Assembly: GCA_032358255.1 (NCBI GenBank)
Contig: JAULBX010000003.1
Coordinates: 186,001-250,000 of the forward strand
From: Heterotrichella gracilis
Lineage: Eukaryota > Sar > Xanthophyceae > Tribonematales > Xanthonemataceae
Direction of reading: 5' to 3'
Length of the DNA stretch: 64,000 nt
Below the pieces are notes generated by a model, which saw nothing but the letters and a program-made list of their open reading frames with translations, ran no database searches and had not been told where the DNA came from. Below are positions 1,753 through 64,000 of this stretch, one piece after another; within the stretch, counting starts at the first letter, position 1, and each line of letters begins with the position of its first letter. The position numbers were made by a program, and so were the translations under genes.

Positions 1753-4700
1753 ATGCAGATGCAGAGCAGGGTAGCCATGCTTCAACCTAGAACGCTACCT
1801 GGTGGCCTATGCCCAGCTCACAGGATGGCAGGCGTCAGGCGCGTGAAGGTAAAAACATTACATGCTAGCCATGCTACTTGATGCCATGCTAGTGCCATCA
1901 TAGAAACCCTTGTACCCTGCTCGCCTCCAACCTGCGCTGTGGCTGTTGACAGGGCGGCGGCTCGACCCTGCGCATGCCCTTGGTACAAGCGGTTGCTGCA
2001 CCTGAGAAGGCAGTGCTCTCCGGTCAGGTCCAGAAGGCTGGAGATGGCATAGGGTTCTACCCAGGTATGGCAGCATACGTGGAGGGCAGTGGTAGTTAGA
2101 CATGCATCCCAGCAATACAGCCAGATGAGCAGTCAGTCTTGCACATGCACCACCAAACAGCTCTTTTCTCTCAGGGCAATCACCAGCCCTCCAAAACCGG
2201 CTGGCCACCCCCCCCTTCTCATCCGCACCCAACGCCCTCATACTTGCGAGAAGGCGCATGGTCCAATCTCCGTTCACTCTTATCCATAGGGGACGATGGG
2301 TTTCTGTACTGCGACAACCTGCGGGTGGACGACATCCGCCAGCAGGTGCCCGAGTCGCCCTTCTATCTGTACAGCAAGGCCAAGATCACCGCCAACTACA
2401 CCGCCTACCAGCAGGCACTGGAGGGCCTGGACTCCATCATAGGCTATGCTGTCAAGGCAAACAACAACCTCAAGATCGTGCAGCACCTACAGGCGCTGGG
2501 CAGCGGCGCGGTGCTGGTGTCTGGCAACGAGCTCAAGCTGGCGACTGTGGCGGGCTTCGACCCAACCAGGTAGACACCCCGCGCAGCAAAGCTACAGCAG
2601 GCAGCACAGCTTGCTTGGATGACTGCAACTAAGCATATAAGAATCCTCACACCGCCCAATGGCTCTGCTGGCCATGCCAATGACGATAACACACTGTTTT
2701 GGAGGCTTGCATCTGCATCTTGCTGCCCACCACCCACCTGCACCCACCTTGCGTCAGGGTGGTGTTCAGTGGCAAGGGAAGGGTCCCTGGGGAGCCAGAG
2801 TGAGCCGCACACAAAAAGGGAGTACATGTATTATGTAGAAGGCAGGAGATATGTGTCTGCGCGGTCATCACAGTAGAGATTGAAGGCTGCGTTAGCCTGC
2901 ATTGCAAACCACATCCTGCGTTGCAAACCACGCCCCTTCCCTCAGGACGGTGTTCAACGGCAACGGCAAGATCCCGCGCGAGCTGGAGTGGGCTGTTGAG
3001 CAAGGGGTGCTGGTCAACGTGGACAGCGAGTTTGACCTGGACAACATCCGGGGCGCTGCGCAGCGGGTGGGCAAGCGAGTCAAGGTGCTCATCCGCATCA
3101 ACCCCGACGTGGACCCGCAGGTGCACGCCTACGTGTCCACGGGCCTCGCCAGCTCCAAGTTTGGCATCCGCAACAGCCACCTGCAGGTGCGCTGCACGAC
3201 AGCTGTGTCAACCTTAGCTTCTGTGAGCCACGAAGGGCATGTGGGGGGTGTGGGTGTGTGCCACACACTGTGTGGTCAGTGGTTTGGTGACTTCCAGCTG
3301 GGATTGGCGTAGGGGGGTAGGGGGGGGAGGGGCTCTCCTGTAGCATGGGAGTTACCAGCTGGGCATACATGGGTGTACCTGTTTGGTGAGCATGGAGGGA
3401 AACAACTTAAGCTAAGGGGGCGGTCTAATTAACCCAGCTTCCTGGAAATGATCTGGGCTGCCGGCACAGCAGGGGCTCACCTGATGCACAGTATTGCTTG
3501 GACTGTCAGCAGGGGTACGTAAAGTTGTCATGCGACAAACGCTGTGGGTTTTCACATGCCTGTGCCTGTGCAGTGGTTCCTGGACCAGATTAAGGATGAC
3601 GAGCACCTGGAGCTGGTGGGGGTGCACAGCCACCTGGGCTCAACCATCACCAAGGTACACTAAACCCTAAACCTTAAACCCTCTCAACCCTGGAGCTGGT
3701 GGGGGTGCACAGTCACGTGGGATCAGCCATCACCAAGGGGGGTAGATTGGGCATTTTGCCACATTGTTTATTACCATTCCGCATGCTGCAACGCAAGAAG
3801 AAATTAGATTATGTATCTGGGCGACTGGTCTGCATGCATTACATCGGCAACTGCTGTCACACCAAAAGGCGCTTGGTAGGTGATATTGATTGCAGACCAT
3901 AAAATGCAGAGCCTAATATCATGTCCAGCATTCATGCAAGAGCTTTCATGCAAGAGCTAAACCTACTTGAAAATGGAAATAATTGCAGTATGGGGGAAAT
4001 CACATCCCATATGTGATGTGCATGTGATGTGATATGAGGCAGTATGAAATGTCCTGACATGTCACGCCTGTTCCCACCACAGGTCAACATCTTCCGGGAC
4101 GCTGCCCTGATCATGACCGACTTTGTGAAGGAGATCAACAAGCAGGGTTTCAACCTCAAGTACCTCAACATCGGGGGCGGGCTGGGCATTGACTACTACC
4201 GCAAGTGAGTGCACACCGCACCCCACTACCTTTGAAATATCAATGGAAAAGAACAGGGAAATAGTTGGATTACAACCCAGCTTCCGGCCCTGATTACGTG
4301 TAGGGTATCAGGGATTCATGCATGATGTCATATCTTTGCATGAGCAACATTCAGCCCACCTTCATGGACCCCATCTACACAATGATGAAGCTTGGGTGTT
4401 AGGAATAACATATAATCCATCCCACAAAGGGGATGCAGCTGAGAACCCCTGGGGCCTCTTTAGACATGTACCAGTAGCCATTTGGCATATGAACTTAATC
4501 CATGATTTCCCTCCCGGCAGGGGCGACATCCTGCCCACCCCCATGGACCTCATCGACACCGTGCGCGACCTCATCACCGGCATGGGCCTCACCCTGGTCA
4601 TCGAGCCCGGCCGCTCCATGGTGGCCAACTCAGCGGCCTTTGTCAACACCGTGACGGGCGTCAAGACCAACGGCAGCAAGAACTTCATCGTGGTGGATGG

Positions 4701-5308
4701 CTCCATGGCGGAGCTCATCCGGCCCTCGCTGTATGACGCCTACCAGCATATTGAGCTCACTGCGCCCTGCAGCGGGGAGGTGCAGACGTACGACGTGGTG
4801 GGGCCGGTGTGCGAGAGCGCGGATTTCCTGGGCAAGGACCGGGCGCTGGCCACGCCCTCGGCGGGCGACGGGCTGGTGGTGGAGGACGCAGGTGCGGGCC
4901 CAGGGACTCCAACAATAAACCATGCTGCAGACCAGGCGGTTGCAGCTTACCTTGAAATGTTCCATGGAGCCTAATACCTCCTCTCATCTTCCCCCATGCC
5001 CCCGTCCGCATAGGCGTCTACTGCATGGCATGGCCTCCACCTACAACCTCAGGGTAGTACCAACCCTGCCAACACTGCTTGCCTGGCTGGCCCGCTGGGG
5101 TGTACTGCATACACAAAGCAATTCCACAGCGCCCTCCCACTCTAACCTCCCAAACCTCATTTCCGCAGGCGCCTACTGCATGGCCATGGCCTCCACCTAC
5201 AACCTCAAGATGCGGCCAGCTGAGTACTGGGTGGCTGATGGGGAGGTGAAGAAGATCAGGCGAGCGGAGACCCTAGAGGACCACATCAAGATGTTTGAGG
5301 GCTTGTAA
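1753..5308 (+). CDS. lysA: Diaminopimelate decarboxylase, plastid lysine synthesis
   Basis: Exons 1753-1848, 1953-2064, 2290-2569, 2946-3186, 3574-3654, 4083-4204, 4521-4891 and 5169-5308 join in frame to 480 codons, about the length of plant enzymes. It decarboxylates meso-diaminopimelate to L-lysine using PLP. The PLP lysine is in YAVKAN (about residue 125). HSHLGS, the phosphate-binding Gly loop (NIGGGLGID), EPGRSMV, the catalytic-Cys motif GPVCES and the C-terminal [11 protein letters not shown] are all present. The first 60-70 residues are Arg/Met/Gly-rich and unlike bacterial LysA, which fits a chloroplast transit peptide (inference). The ATG at 1753 was chosen because this exon splices in frame; 1759 is an alternative. 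Two introns hold duplicated exon edges (3689-3737 and 5008-5052), annotated separately. Confidence 0.95.
3689..3737 (+). repeat. Exon-edge ghost of lysA exon 5 (donor side)
   Basis: This copies the end of the exon at 3606-3654, shifted 83 bases downstream and carrying several substitutions. It still ends in ATCACCAAG followed by GGGG instead of the GT donor. Telomere-like CCTAAA units (from about 3662) separate it from the source exon. It is read as intronic. Confidence 0.85.
5008..5052 (+). repeat. Exon-edge ghost of lysA last exon (acceptor side)
   Basis: This is a near-copy of the start of the last exon (5163-5210), lying about 155 bases upstream and including an AG acceptor (GCATAG). One missing base in GCATGGCATGGCC breaks the frame, so using this acceptor would disrupt the conserved C-terminus. 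Confidence 0.85.
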
Positions 5309-63274: not shown

Positions 63275-64000
63275 ATGTCTACGCGCTTCGAGCTGGGATA
63301 CAGAGGCAGGAGCGGCAAGAACGCCCCACTCTCCACCGCATTCGACCTCGACGACTCTGGCAAACAAAAGCCCACCAAGAAAAGGCGGTTGCTGCGGCTG
63401 TGCAGCGTCCTGATCACCATCGTGGCACTGTCTTTTGCTGCGCTTTCGTTCTTACCTCAACGATCTAGTGACCCACCAATAGCTAGGCAACAACAGAAAG
63501 GGAGCCAAGCGGAGCGGCTGCTTTTATCCACACACAACCGGCTGCTGTGGTACTACTACAAAACAGGGCAGACTCAAGTCATCCACCATGGCCAGGTAAG
63601 TGGTTCACCACCCACCACCCACCCACCCACCACCTTGCACACACCCACCTTCATCGTCCCACACCCAAAGCATGTAAATCCACCATCCACTTGTCTTGCG
63701 GACCTGATCGTGCAACCTTGCACCTCTGGCAGGGGTTTTACCGTGGGTATTGCTCGGTTGGCACCAGTACCATCTTGGATGGCCTCCCGCCCCCCACCCA
63801 CAACCCACCCACCATCCATCACCTACCACCCACCATCCACTCAGCTTTCCCACTTGCCATGGCAGGGGGTGTATTATGGGGTCTTCCCAGGGGAGGAGGC
63901 GGATGACTCTGGTGCCACCAGCACCATCTGGGTGGTCTCCCGCCCACACAACTGGCAGCCCACAACCACCCAGGAGTGGCTCCTGCACCTAGACCTAGAA
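63275..64000 (+). CDS. N-terminal part of a type II membrane protein (3' partial)
   Basis: Exon 1 is 63275-63595 (107 codons) and exon 2 is 63866 to beyond the window end, phase 0. A basic stretch (KPTKKRRLLRLC) precedes one hydrophobic span (SVLITIVALSFAALSFL, about residues 47-63), so the bulk should face the lumen or outside. The visible lumenal part (GVYYGVFPGEE, TIWVVSRPHNW, TQEWLLHLDLE) looks like the start of a beta-rich domain, perhaps sulfotransferase or propeller type, but I do not recognise it with confidence. Confidence 0.65.
   Translation, partial: MSTRFELGYRGRSGKNAPLSTAFDLDDSGKQKPTKKRRLLRLCSVLITIVALSFAALSFLPQRSSDPPIARQQQKGSQAERLLLSTHNRLLWYYYKTGQTQVIHHGQVSGSPPTTHPPTTLHTPTFIVPHPKHVNPPSTCLADLIVQPCTSGRGFTVGIARLAPVPSWMASRPPPTTHPPSITYHPPSTQLSHLPWQGVYYGVFPGEEADDSGATSTIWVVSRPHNWQPTTTQEWLLHLDLE
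63729..63798 (+). repeat. Ghost of exon 2 start of the membrane-protein gene (acceptor side)
   Basis: GGCAGGGG through CACCAGTACCATCTTGG and GGCCTCCCGCCC copies 63861-63943 with a large internal deletion, about 132 bases upstream of the true acceptor. Confidence 0.75.

Follow-up and report, generated by a model that had tools for sequence, protein, structure and literature searches.

How existing introns grow longer, and whether DNA breaks prefer the borders of exons, are open questions, and both are raised by a stretch of 64,000 nucleotides (nt) from the genome of the xanthophycean alga Heterotrichella gracilis (bases 186,001-250,000 of contig C2; hereafter the window), in which sequences straddling the ends of exons recur within the adjoining introns. 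Tandem duplication of AGGT-containing exon sequence is a general model of intron gain. An original prediction, made from the sequence of the window, held that such partial copies (here called ghosts) occur at high density, through a continuing process rather than one event, and that they mainly lengthen introns that already exist or seed cryptic splice sites.

Using predicted exons, we show that short stretches straddling an exon edge have been duplicated in direct orientation, leaving a working edge and a decaying ghost in the intron, and a sample of 272 kb confirms that these duplications are genome-wide and extend beyond the window. Both the introns and the filler between the copies carry tracts of telomere repeat at exon edges, a feature unnoticed in the original prediction. 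Exon-edge duplications and telomere tracts belong together, and we consider below how the two might be produced.

Materials and Methods

The assembly comprises 68.5 Mb in 903 contigs. In addition to the window, 25 further stretches were fetched, one per contig from 25 contigs, chosen blind by contig number. Exon statistics were compiled from 23 sequences totalling 272 kb (the window and 22 stretches) or, where stated, from an earlier subset of 18 sequences (222 kb). Three stretches (L002, C1:100001-110000; L010; L013; 28.7 kb) were left out of the exon statistics; these have a guanine plus cytosine (GC) content of 0.33-0.40, long reading frames of bacterial type and zero predicted exons, and by eye we take their open reading frames to be Bacteroidota-like (RecG-like, TamB-like and sensor kinases). 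These low-GC contigs, one of them 894 kb long, are probably bacterial DNA within the assembly.

Genes were modelled with a semi-Markov gene finder, self-trained on the sample and seeded with the exons of a diaminopimelate decarboxylase gene (lysA) in the window, which returned 352 exons in 18 sequences. Gene counts are approximate, because neighbouring genes were sometimes fused and some ghosts were modelled as exons. Pfam searches with five window models gave matches above the cut-offs to PHD fingers, galactosyltransferase, syntaxin/SNARE and KH domains; among the window models a calmodulin-binding match lay just under its cut-off, and RING and RanBP zinc finger matches lay under theirs. For the count of duplication clusters in the 272 kb, pairs more than half telomere-like or low-complexity were left out, and the count was unchanged between dust on and dust off. 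The filler test excluded fillers of less than 15 nt and those whose intron part was negative (72 reduced to 52), and likewise left out were spacers or flanks shorter than 20 nt from the spacer-homology test (57 reduced to 47).

Results

Local direct duplications at predicted exon edges

Comparison of the window with itself by blastn yielded 41 non-self pairs, among which 37 were on the same strand less than 1000 bp apart (35 of these less than 300 bp), four were distant and none was inverted within 3000 bp, bearing out the high density of same-strand local copies first described. Across 21 sequences (250.7 kb, bacterial contigs included) there were 100 direct pairs within 1 kb, four of them on a bacterial contig, and three inverted. 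In the 272 kb, 120 direct pairs were kept against two inverted, and these merged into 88 direct-duplication clusters, comprising 77 at exon edges, 10 confined to introns and one intergenic.

Of 282 exon ends (last 50 nt), 32 matched the intron that follows, and of 289 exon starts (first 50 nt), 25 matched the intron before; pooled, 57 of 571 tests gave a match, against 0-1 per side (0-2 pooled) for each set of control introns, whether reverse-complemented, taken from other genes or shuffled. This check had been set in advance, and the predicted excess over controls was found. Comparisons with the intron on the wrong side gave 0/229 and 1/244 matches, exon middles gave 2/169 and 3/160 (5/329 in total), and intron middles matched the rest of the same intron in 13 of 229 cases. 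With matches on the right side and hardly any on the wrong side or in the middle, the pattern has the geometry of an X-Y-F-Y-Z duplication, in which Y is the stretch spanning the edge and F the filler between its copies.

Within the window, 24 ghosts were recovered at exon ends from the gene models, in agreement with the more than 25 copies counted by eye; those at 41880-41954 and 41975-42023 are two sides of one event. At least one ghost is present in six of the seven window models with at least three exons, and in 22 of 40 such models sample-wide, counted on models that fuse neighbours. The 272 kb contain 72 ghosts, detected in 36 of 347 donor tests and 36 of 352 acceptor tests; both sides, each of which had been reported from the window, are equally common. 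Identity between ghost and parent spans 97% to 72%, which favours a process that is still going on. Copies a short way beyond the stop codon, which had also been claimed, occur at 3 of 27 stops, and also in the window (Table 1). The range first proposed, which ran to position 63,798, was not confirmed at its far end: no direct pair (E<=1e-3) starts after 61,000, and nothing was confirmed beyond about 61.1 kb.

The signature of a new intron under the AGGT model, in which the beginning of the intron resembles the downstream exon and its end resembles the upstream one, was found in 3 of 377 introns, with no convincing new intron among them. One (window 41880-42023, 144 nt) we take to be a ghost that the gene finder called an exon, another lies within a tandem array (in stretch L020) and the third (in L009) was not inspected. 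From the original suggestion of tandem duplication of AGGT exon sequence, the lengthening of existing introns stands, while the mode does not, in that the duplications are mostly not plain tandem ones and most young copies are separated by filler.

Decay and anatomy of ghosts

Mismatches between the 72 ghosts and their exons amount to 8.9, 8.0 and 17.4% at codon positions 1, 2 and 3, a 1:1:2 pattern that would be expected of a freely decaying ghost and an exon that changes at silent sites only. Gaps in ghost alignments shift the frame in 21 of 22 cases, and the splice dinucleotides are kept in 24 of 30 (GT) and 20 of 25 (AG). Neutral decay predicts about 8.5% change per site in the ghost, double that at third positions, and a dinucleotide retention of 0.84; the observed retention matches this rate, which is the result that bears on the suggested seeding of cryptic splice sites. 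The ghosts are neutral relics, and their pattern differs from what an assembly error, an exon in use or a regulatory copy under conservation would produce.

In young pairs (identity >=0.88, n=25), the median Y consists of 47 nt of exon and 9 nt of intron and the median filler F measures 69 nt. Simple tandem duplication was rejected as the whole story for most young copies, since their spacers are unlike the outer flank over the full length; it is kept for a minority. The polypyrimidine tract upstream of acceptor ghosts scores 0.90, against -2.42 for random intron (p=2e-5; n=14, short intron part) and 2.23 for real acceptors (p=0.04, n=14); because the outer flank of the ghost is acceptor-like, we read it as original and decaying, and F as new.

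Three of the 52 fillers were searched genome-wide for a multicopy element. Two were single copy, and the third had two partial matches only, the longer covering 57 of 137 query bases; no multicopy filler, such as an introner or a transposon with target duplication would leave, was found in the three stretches searched. Ghost-free introns (243 donor and 244 acceptor tests) gave own-exon scores barely above those of other exons (p 0.014 and 0.003 respectively, with about half of introns above), an excess too slight for hidden ghosts to be present in nearly all introns, and that candidate was also set aside.

Telomere tracts in introns and their coupling with ghosts

The telomere repeat is of plant type (TTTAGGG), with CCCTAAA arrays at contig ends. 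Introns contain 1284 telomere heptamers; across 19 other heptamer classes of the same composition the median is 152 and the maximum 230. In 255 introns of at least 240 nt, the number of heptamers per kb inside the donor is 35 at 6-20 nt, 31 at 20-40 nt and 3.0 at 60-90 nt, and mid-intron it is 5.9, so that the donor zone of 6-40 nt exceeds mid-intron more than fivefold, in both orientations; density is about 19 per kb at 20-60 nt before the acceptor. The control classes are roughly flat along introns. The dip at 60-90 nt, which falls below the mid-intron level, possibly marks the usual position of ghosts; a GC test for a GC-rich ghost zone behind donor-side tracts gave no clear sign.

At 4-60 nt on the donor side the orientations are about balanced (186 G-strand, 165 C-strand), and at 20-40 nt upstream of acceptors the counts are 5 G-strand and 94 C-strand, a bias that would be expected if AG-bearing tracts did harm in this position. 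The phase of the tract relative to the donor is variable, and coding exons rarely contain the heptamer (0.83 per kb). Across 28 stop edges no clear peak was seen, with 17 heptamers in the first 60 nt (about 10 per kb) and 8.4 per kb at 90-200 nt; at 30 start edges there were three.

Genome-wide, the donor word AGGTGNG followed by a telomere decamer within 2-22 nt gave 1786 matches (676+1110) and the decamer placed before AGGTGNG gave 454 (196+258), these being matches rather than sites, since a site with two decamers is counted twice, and obtained with no gene model. The reverse order also catches acceptors preceding GTG-starting exons (many among the matches listed), so the contrast is possibly underestimated. 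As this count needs no visible duplication, it supports the edge preference independently. Among the matches listed, several donor-telomere sites stand in doublets or triplets 63-152 bp apart. Tandem donor-plus-telomere words 88-113 bp apart were also noted among the matches listed, at C11:65634-65881, C25:43099-43216 and C32:110440-110572, with more such words at C34:107607-107733, C47:131311-131428, C23:72995-73242 and C12:125982-126119.

Telomere heptamers, in either orientation, are present in 22 of 52 fillers, where 7.9 would be expected in random intron pieces; 0 of 2000 permutations reached the observed count. The sample contains 165 internal telomere clusters with at least 12 exact bases; 40 of 128 intronic clusters lie inside a direct duplication, compared with 6.4% of random positions, and 0 of 128 inside an inverted one. 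Donor ghosts occur in 22 of 105 introns with a donor-side tract and 12 of 224 without (odds ratio 4.7, p=5e-5), and acceptor ghosts in 13 of 72 introns with an acceptor-side tract and 20 of 257 without (odds ratio 2.6, p=0.015). Heptamers were found in 13 of 57 outer flanks and 21 of 57 spacers. A telomerase RNA-binding domain match in two pieces, probably two exons, lies at C626:23723-24513 on the minus strand.

Preference for exon edges

Uniform duplications were simulated in the 222-kb set, with in-exon events purged, the exon copy slow-changing and the same blastn settings. They were detected at an edge:intron:intergenic ratio of 189:348:210 (25% edge), against 59:9:1 (86%) observed in the same 222 kb; the edge share in the 272 kb is 88%. 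The youngest class, defined by an identity cut of 93% for edge pairs and 90% for intron pairs, where detection differs little, is distributed 7:4:0 against an expected edge share of 20% (p=0.002; small numbers). Exon edges are favoured by duplications, the sign of the excess being firmer than its size, because the age and length parameters were set by us and the exon labels are predicted. Both splice-linked and exon-linked breakage are possible.

Features of the window

The features are listed in Table 1. The joined lysA exons encode an open protein with no internal stop; the reading frame at 4318-4974 matches PDB 6n2a (Arabidopsis-type DAPDC 1) with E=4.1e-55, and among solved structures the decarboxylase is closest to plant chloroplastic enzymes. 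Some ghosts are open enough to be called as exons (19908-20144, 32024-32416, 59579-59917 and 60325-60606), producing duplicated peptide stretches in the models, and automatic annotation of the genome may hold false exons derived from such open ghosts. Two other repeats were noted. A 93-bp intronic tandem array at 19363-19679 (3.4 copies) contains inner inverted repeats (GTTAGT-TG-ACTAAC) and is unlike the exon-edge copies; the copies of the 78-bp array are up to 99% identical, and it directly abuts a gap of 100 N at 36709-36808.

Table 1. Coordinates of genes, ghosts and repeats in the window
Feature	Position	Strand	Remarks
lysA (diaminopimelate decarboxylase)	2313..5308	+	homology-anchored seed gene
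lysA coding exons	2313-2569, 2946-3186, 3574-3654, 4083-4204, 4521-4891, 5169-5308		
Faint acceptor-side ghost of exon 2946-3186	2741..2805	+	72%, under ghost-count threshold
Parent copy, 49 nt exon end and 1 nt intron	3606..3655	+	blastn pair
Filler, mostly telomere repeat (ctaaaccctaaacc...)	3656..3688	+	
Donor-side ghost of exon end	3689..3738	+	92% identical
Acceptor-side ghost of exon 4521-4891	4338..4380	+	79%
Acceptor-side ghost (TAG and exon start) of exon 5169-5308	5005..5051	+	92%
Filler between ghost and parent	5052..5161	+	outer-flank homology not detected
Ghost of end of last coding exon, shortly past stop codon	5348..5378	+	
Tandem duplication, period 83, across donor of exon 14550-14704	14388..14578	-	ghost 14429-14498
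Tandem duplication, period 83, across acceptor of exon 14550-14704	14676..14842	-	
Duplicated exon end, PHD-finger gene, both copies called exon	19908..20144	-	spacer with ttaggg-like words
Donor-side pair, galactosyltransferase-like gene	27671..27953	+	parent 27671-27746, filler 27747-27873, ghost 27874-27953
194-nt pair at 3' end of syntaxin gene	32024..32416	+	ghost copy translated in model
Intron-only tandem array, period 78	36470..36708	.	ends at assembly gap
Gene with weak RING/RanBP-zinc-finger matches (below Pfam cut-offs)	37627..42108	-	seven exon-end ghosts
Ghosts in 37627..42108	37778-37811, 38439-38535, 39021-39104, 39963-40046, 41046-41153, 41880-41954, 41975-42023		last two are one event
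Telomere tract 7 nt inside donor (gtaagcgCCCTAAACCCTA)	48513..48524	+	edge-adjacent example
Calmodulin-binding-protein-like gene (Pfam just below cut-off)	48980..54813	+	
Ghosts in 48980..54813	49209-49314, 50410-50515, 50730-50760, 51247-51300, 54548-54605		
KH-domain gene	58008..61077	-	several ghosts with telomeric filler
Ghosts in 58008..61077	58499-58540, 60074-60163, 60215-60263, 60438-60506, 60455-60540, 60828-60894		

Discussion

We suggest that existing introns in this alga are lengthened by the repair of staggered breaks at exon edges, through fill-in and the capture of filler that is often telomeric, an account to which we give slightly better than an even chance. Staggered double-strand breaks, or paired nicks, about 40-80 bp apart would span an exon edge; both overhangs would be filled in, duplicating the overhang as Y-Y in direct orientation; telomeric or other DNA added at the ends would become the filler F, and end joining would seal the break. 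Events within exons would be purged by selection, so that the duplications which persist would span the edge and add to the length of introns already there; if breaks target exons, selection would leave insertions no more than about 60 nt from the edge, where they are observed. Less certainly, the filling and adding might be performed by telomere end-processing enzymes (telomerase, CST-Pol alpha). That this machinery, acting at breaks that prefer exon edges, is a main engine of intron growth in this lineage, repeatedly stitching in telomere DNA and an exon-edge copy, is a tentative proposal that falls well short of probable. A strict form of telomerase end extension was rejected, as exact-match strand positions lean the opposite way.

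Insertion of interstitial telomeric sequence at breaks is reportedly the subject of earlier primate and rodent papers, and paired-nick duplications in plants are said to have been described by Schiml in 2016. Telomere repeats are known to enter double-strand breaks, in some cases with direct duplication of the target (PMC7215372); there, as here, internal telomere repeats are sometimes accompanied by random sequence and a direct target duplication, which is attributed to staggered breaks. Two hallmarks of such insertion are present in our sample, namely the organism's own telomere repeat in internal tracts and target duplication around intronic tracts. In the horse, however, plain duplication affects 3 of 66 loci, with two more showing deletion and addition, compared with 40 of 128 intronic tracts here, and in humans the intron share looks random (PMC7215372), whereas here the tracts crowd exon edges. 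In mammalian cells, fill-in of breaks with 43-50 bp 3' overhangs produces tandem duplications via CST-Pol alpha, the complex that performs fill-in at telomeres (PMC8355091); these duplications resemble ours in being direct and tens of bp long, those overhangs comparing with copies of about 60 bp here; the hallmark of fill-in duplication, direct and local copies of tens to about 150 bp with few or no inverted ones, is found in our data. Those experiments used nicking Cas9 in mouse and human cells, whereas ours is a trace left at exon edges in the course of evolution, in which the filler is long and often telomeric and the enzymes are inferred.

Neointrons of Daphnia, attributed to staggered breaks, likewise carry direct repeats, and later internal breaks lengthen the young introns (PMC4202315), but those repeats are of 4-12 bp of exon in new introns, as opposed to about 60 bp in existing introns with telomeric filler. 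Intron gain through AGGT tandem duplication shares the local duplication of exon sequence (PMC4974935) but makes new introns, whereas existing ones are lengthened here and the signature is scarce (3 of 377). Direct repeats near splice sites in many taxa have also been attributed to break repair or transposition (PMC11782384), as border repeats are here; these are of 4-30 bp and join the two intron ends, and the available text of that study does not describe ghosts with telomere filler. Among the literature titles and abstract openings listed, none was found on exon-edge ghosts with telomere tracts, subscription journals lying mostly outside this coverage. Duplication by break repair and telomere insertion are both known; what is unusual here is their placement at exon edges and their coupling.

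Ordinary tandem duplication, uniform along the DNA, would produce the exon-end/intron geometry and, through a constrained exon and a decaying ghost, the 1:1:2 codon pattern, provided that exon-internal events are purged and the frozen exon copy keeps edge pairs recognisable for longer; the matches of intron middles to their own intron, the ghosts at stops and the tandem homology kept in some spacers also fit. We nevertheless think it unlikely, given the edge excess over the simulation in both the 222-kb and 272-kb sets, the composition of the youngest class (small numbers) and the peak at exon edges of telomere tracts, which can be detected without a duplication. Alternatively, the heptamers might be selected splicing signals, acting as a G-run or G-quadruplex (G4) enhancer at donors and as a CTAAA branch point at acceptors, with only an indirect link to ghosts. 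They do sit near splice sites, the C-strand prevails at acceptors, and human G4 motifs are about 3-fold enriched near splice junctions, on both strands and more on the non-template strand at donors (PMC9065059). Yet an RNA G-run enhancer needs one orientation whereas donors carry both, heptamers of the same composition are flat, the donor phase is not fixed, the tracts co-occur with duplications, and the acceptor bias is explicable by selection against AG-bearing G-strand tracts; we regard selected signals as a decidedly doubtful cause.

Telomere-like repeats already present on both sides of the exon edge might, by unequal exchange or slippage, duplicate what separates them, which is very unlikely in our judgement: outer flanks sometimes carry heptamers and whole introns are rich in them, but the far breakpoint of donor ghosts lies in coding exon, where heptamers are rare (for example at window position 3606), and many fillers contain no exact heptamer. 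Dispersed templated insertion, in which an exon-edge piece from nearby mends a break in the intron and the filler represents original intron, would suit the better polypyrimidine tract in the filler than at the ghost; it was rejected, and appears to us highly improbable, on the grounds of geometry, exon middles and far ends being almost never the source despite permissive distances, of the acceptor-like outer flanks and of the near absence of inverted copies. An assembly artefact, in which haplotypes or contig ends that should have been merged were placed one after the other, might be suspected from the gap beside the 78-bp array and from the bacterial-looking contigs; the 72-97% identity, the codon pattern, the edge geometry and the neutral decay of splice sites are so unlike joining errors that we find it scarcely credible.

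Repair of staggered breaks with telomeric filler, the account we prefer, also has results that weigh against it. The exon edges are all predictions. No exact telomere heptamer is present in 30 of 52 fillers, and the three non-telomeric filler stretches searched have no full copy elsewhere, which leaves their source unexplained. Only 1 of 27 intergenic telomere clusters is flanked by a duplication, 0 of 25 coding-sequence starts have ghosts, and no clear motif was apparent among 23 breakpoints. Multi-run telomeric fillers keep one orientation in 9 of 9 cases, which is not distinctive as the same holds for 111 of 141 introns containing at least two heptamers. Extension of broken ends by telomerase would put G-strand repeats beside the left copy and C-strand repeats beside the right, a prediction that failed (mean positions of 0.53 and 0.35; n=11+11, one-sided p 0.98). 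The polypyrimidine tract in F beside the working acceptor scores 2.87 against 0.90 at the ghost (p=0.007, n=14). Finally, the spacer resembles sequence outside the ghost in 16 of 47 cases (p <=0.025; about 1.2 expected), indicating that part of the duplications arose as plain tandem events or as serial ones, as in the introns of L006:3667 and L007:8093; several of these matches are short or low-complexity, and the other 31 spacers have none.

The occurrence of exon-edge duplications together with telomere tracts ties telomere biology to break repair and gene structure, and it offers a concrete mechanism that can be tested in laboratory algae. Because the exon is frozen and the ghost is free, each ghost is its own clock, from which the rate, age and place of these events can be read in one genome without a relative. 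If the telomere machinery does prove to be an engine of intron growth, introns would represent a layered, datable record of break repair at exon edges.

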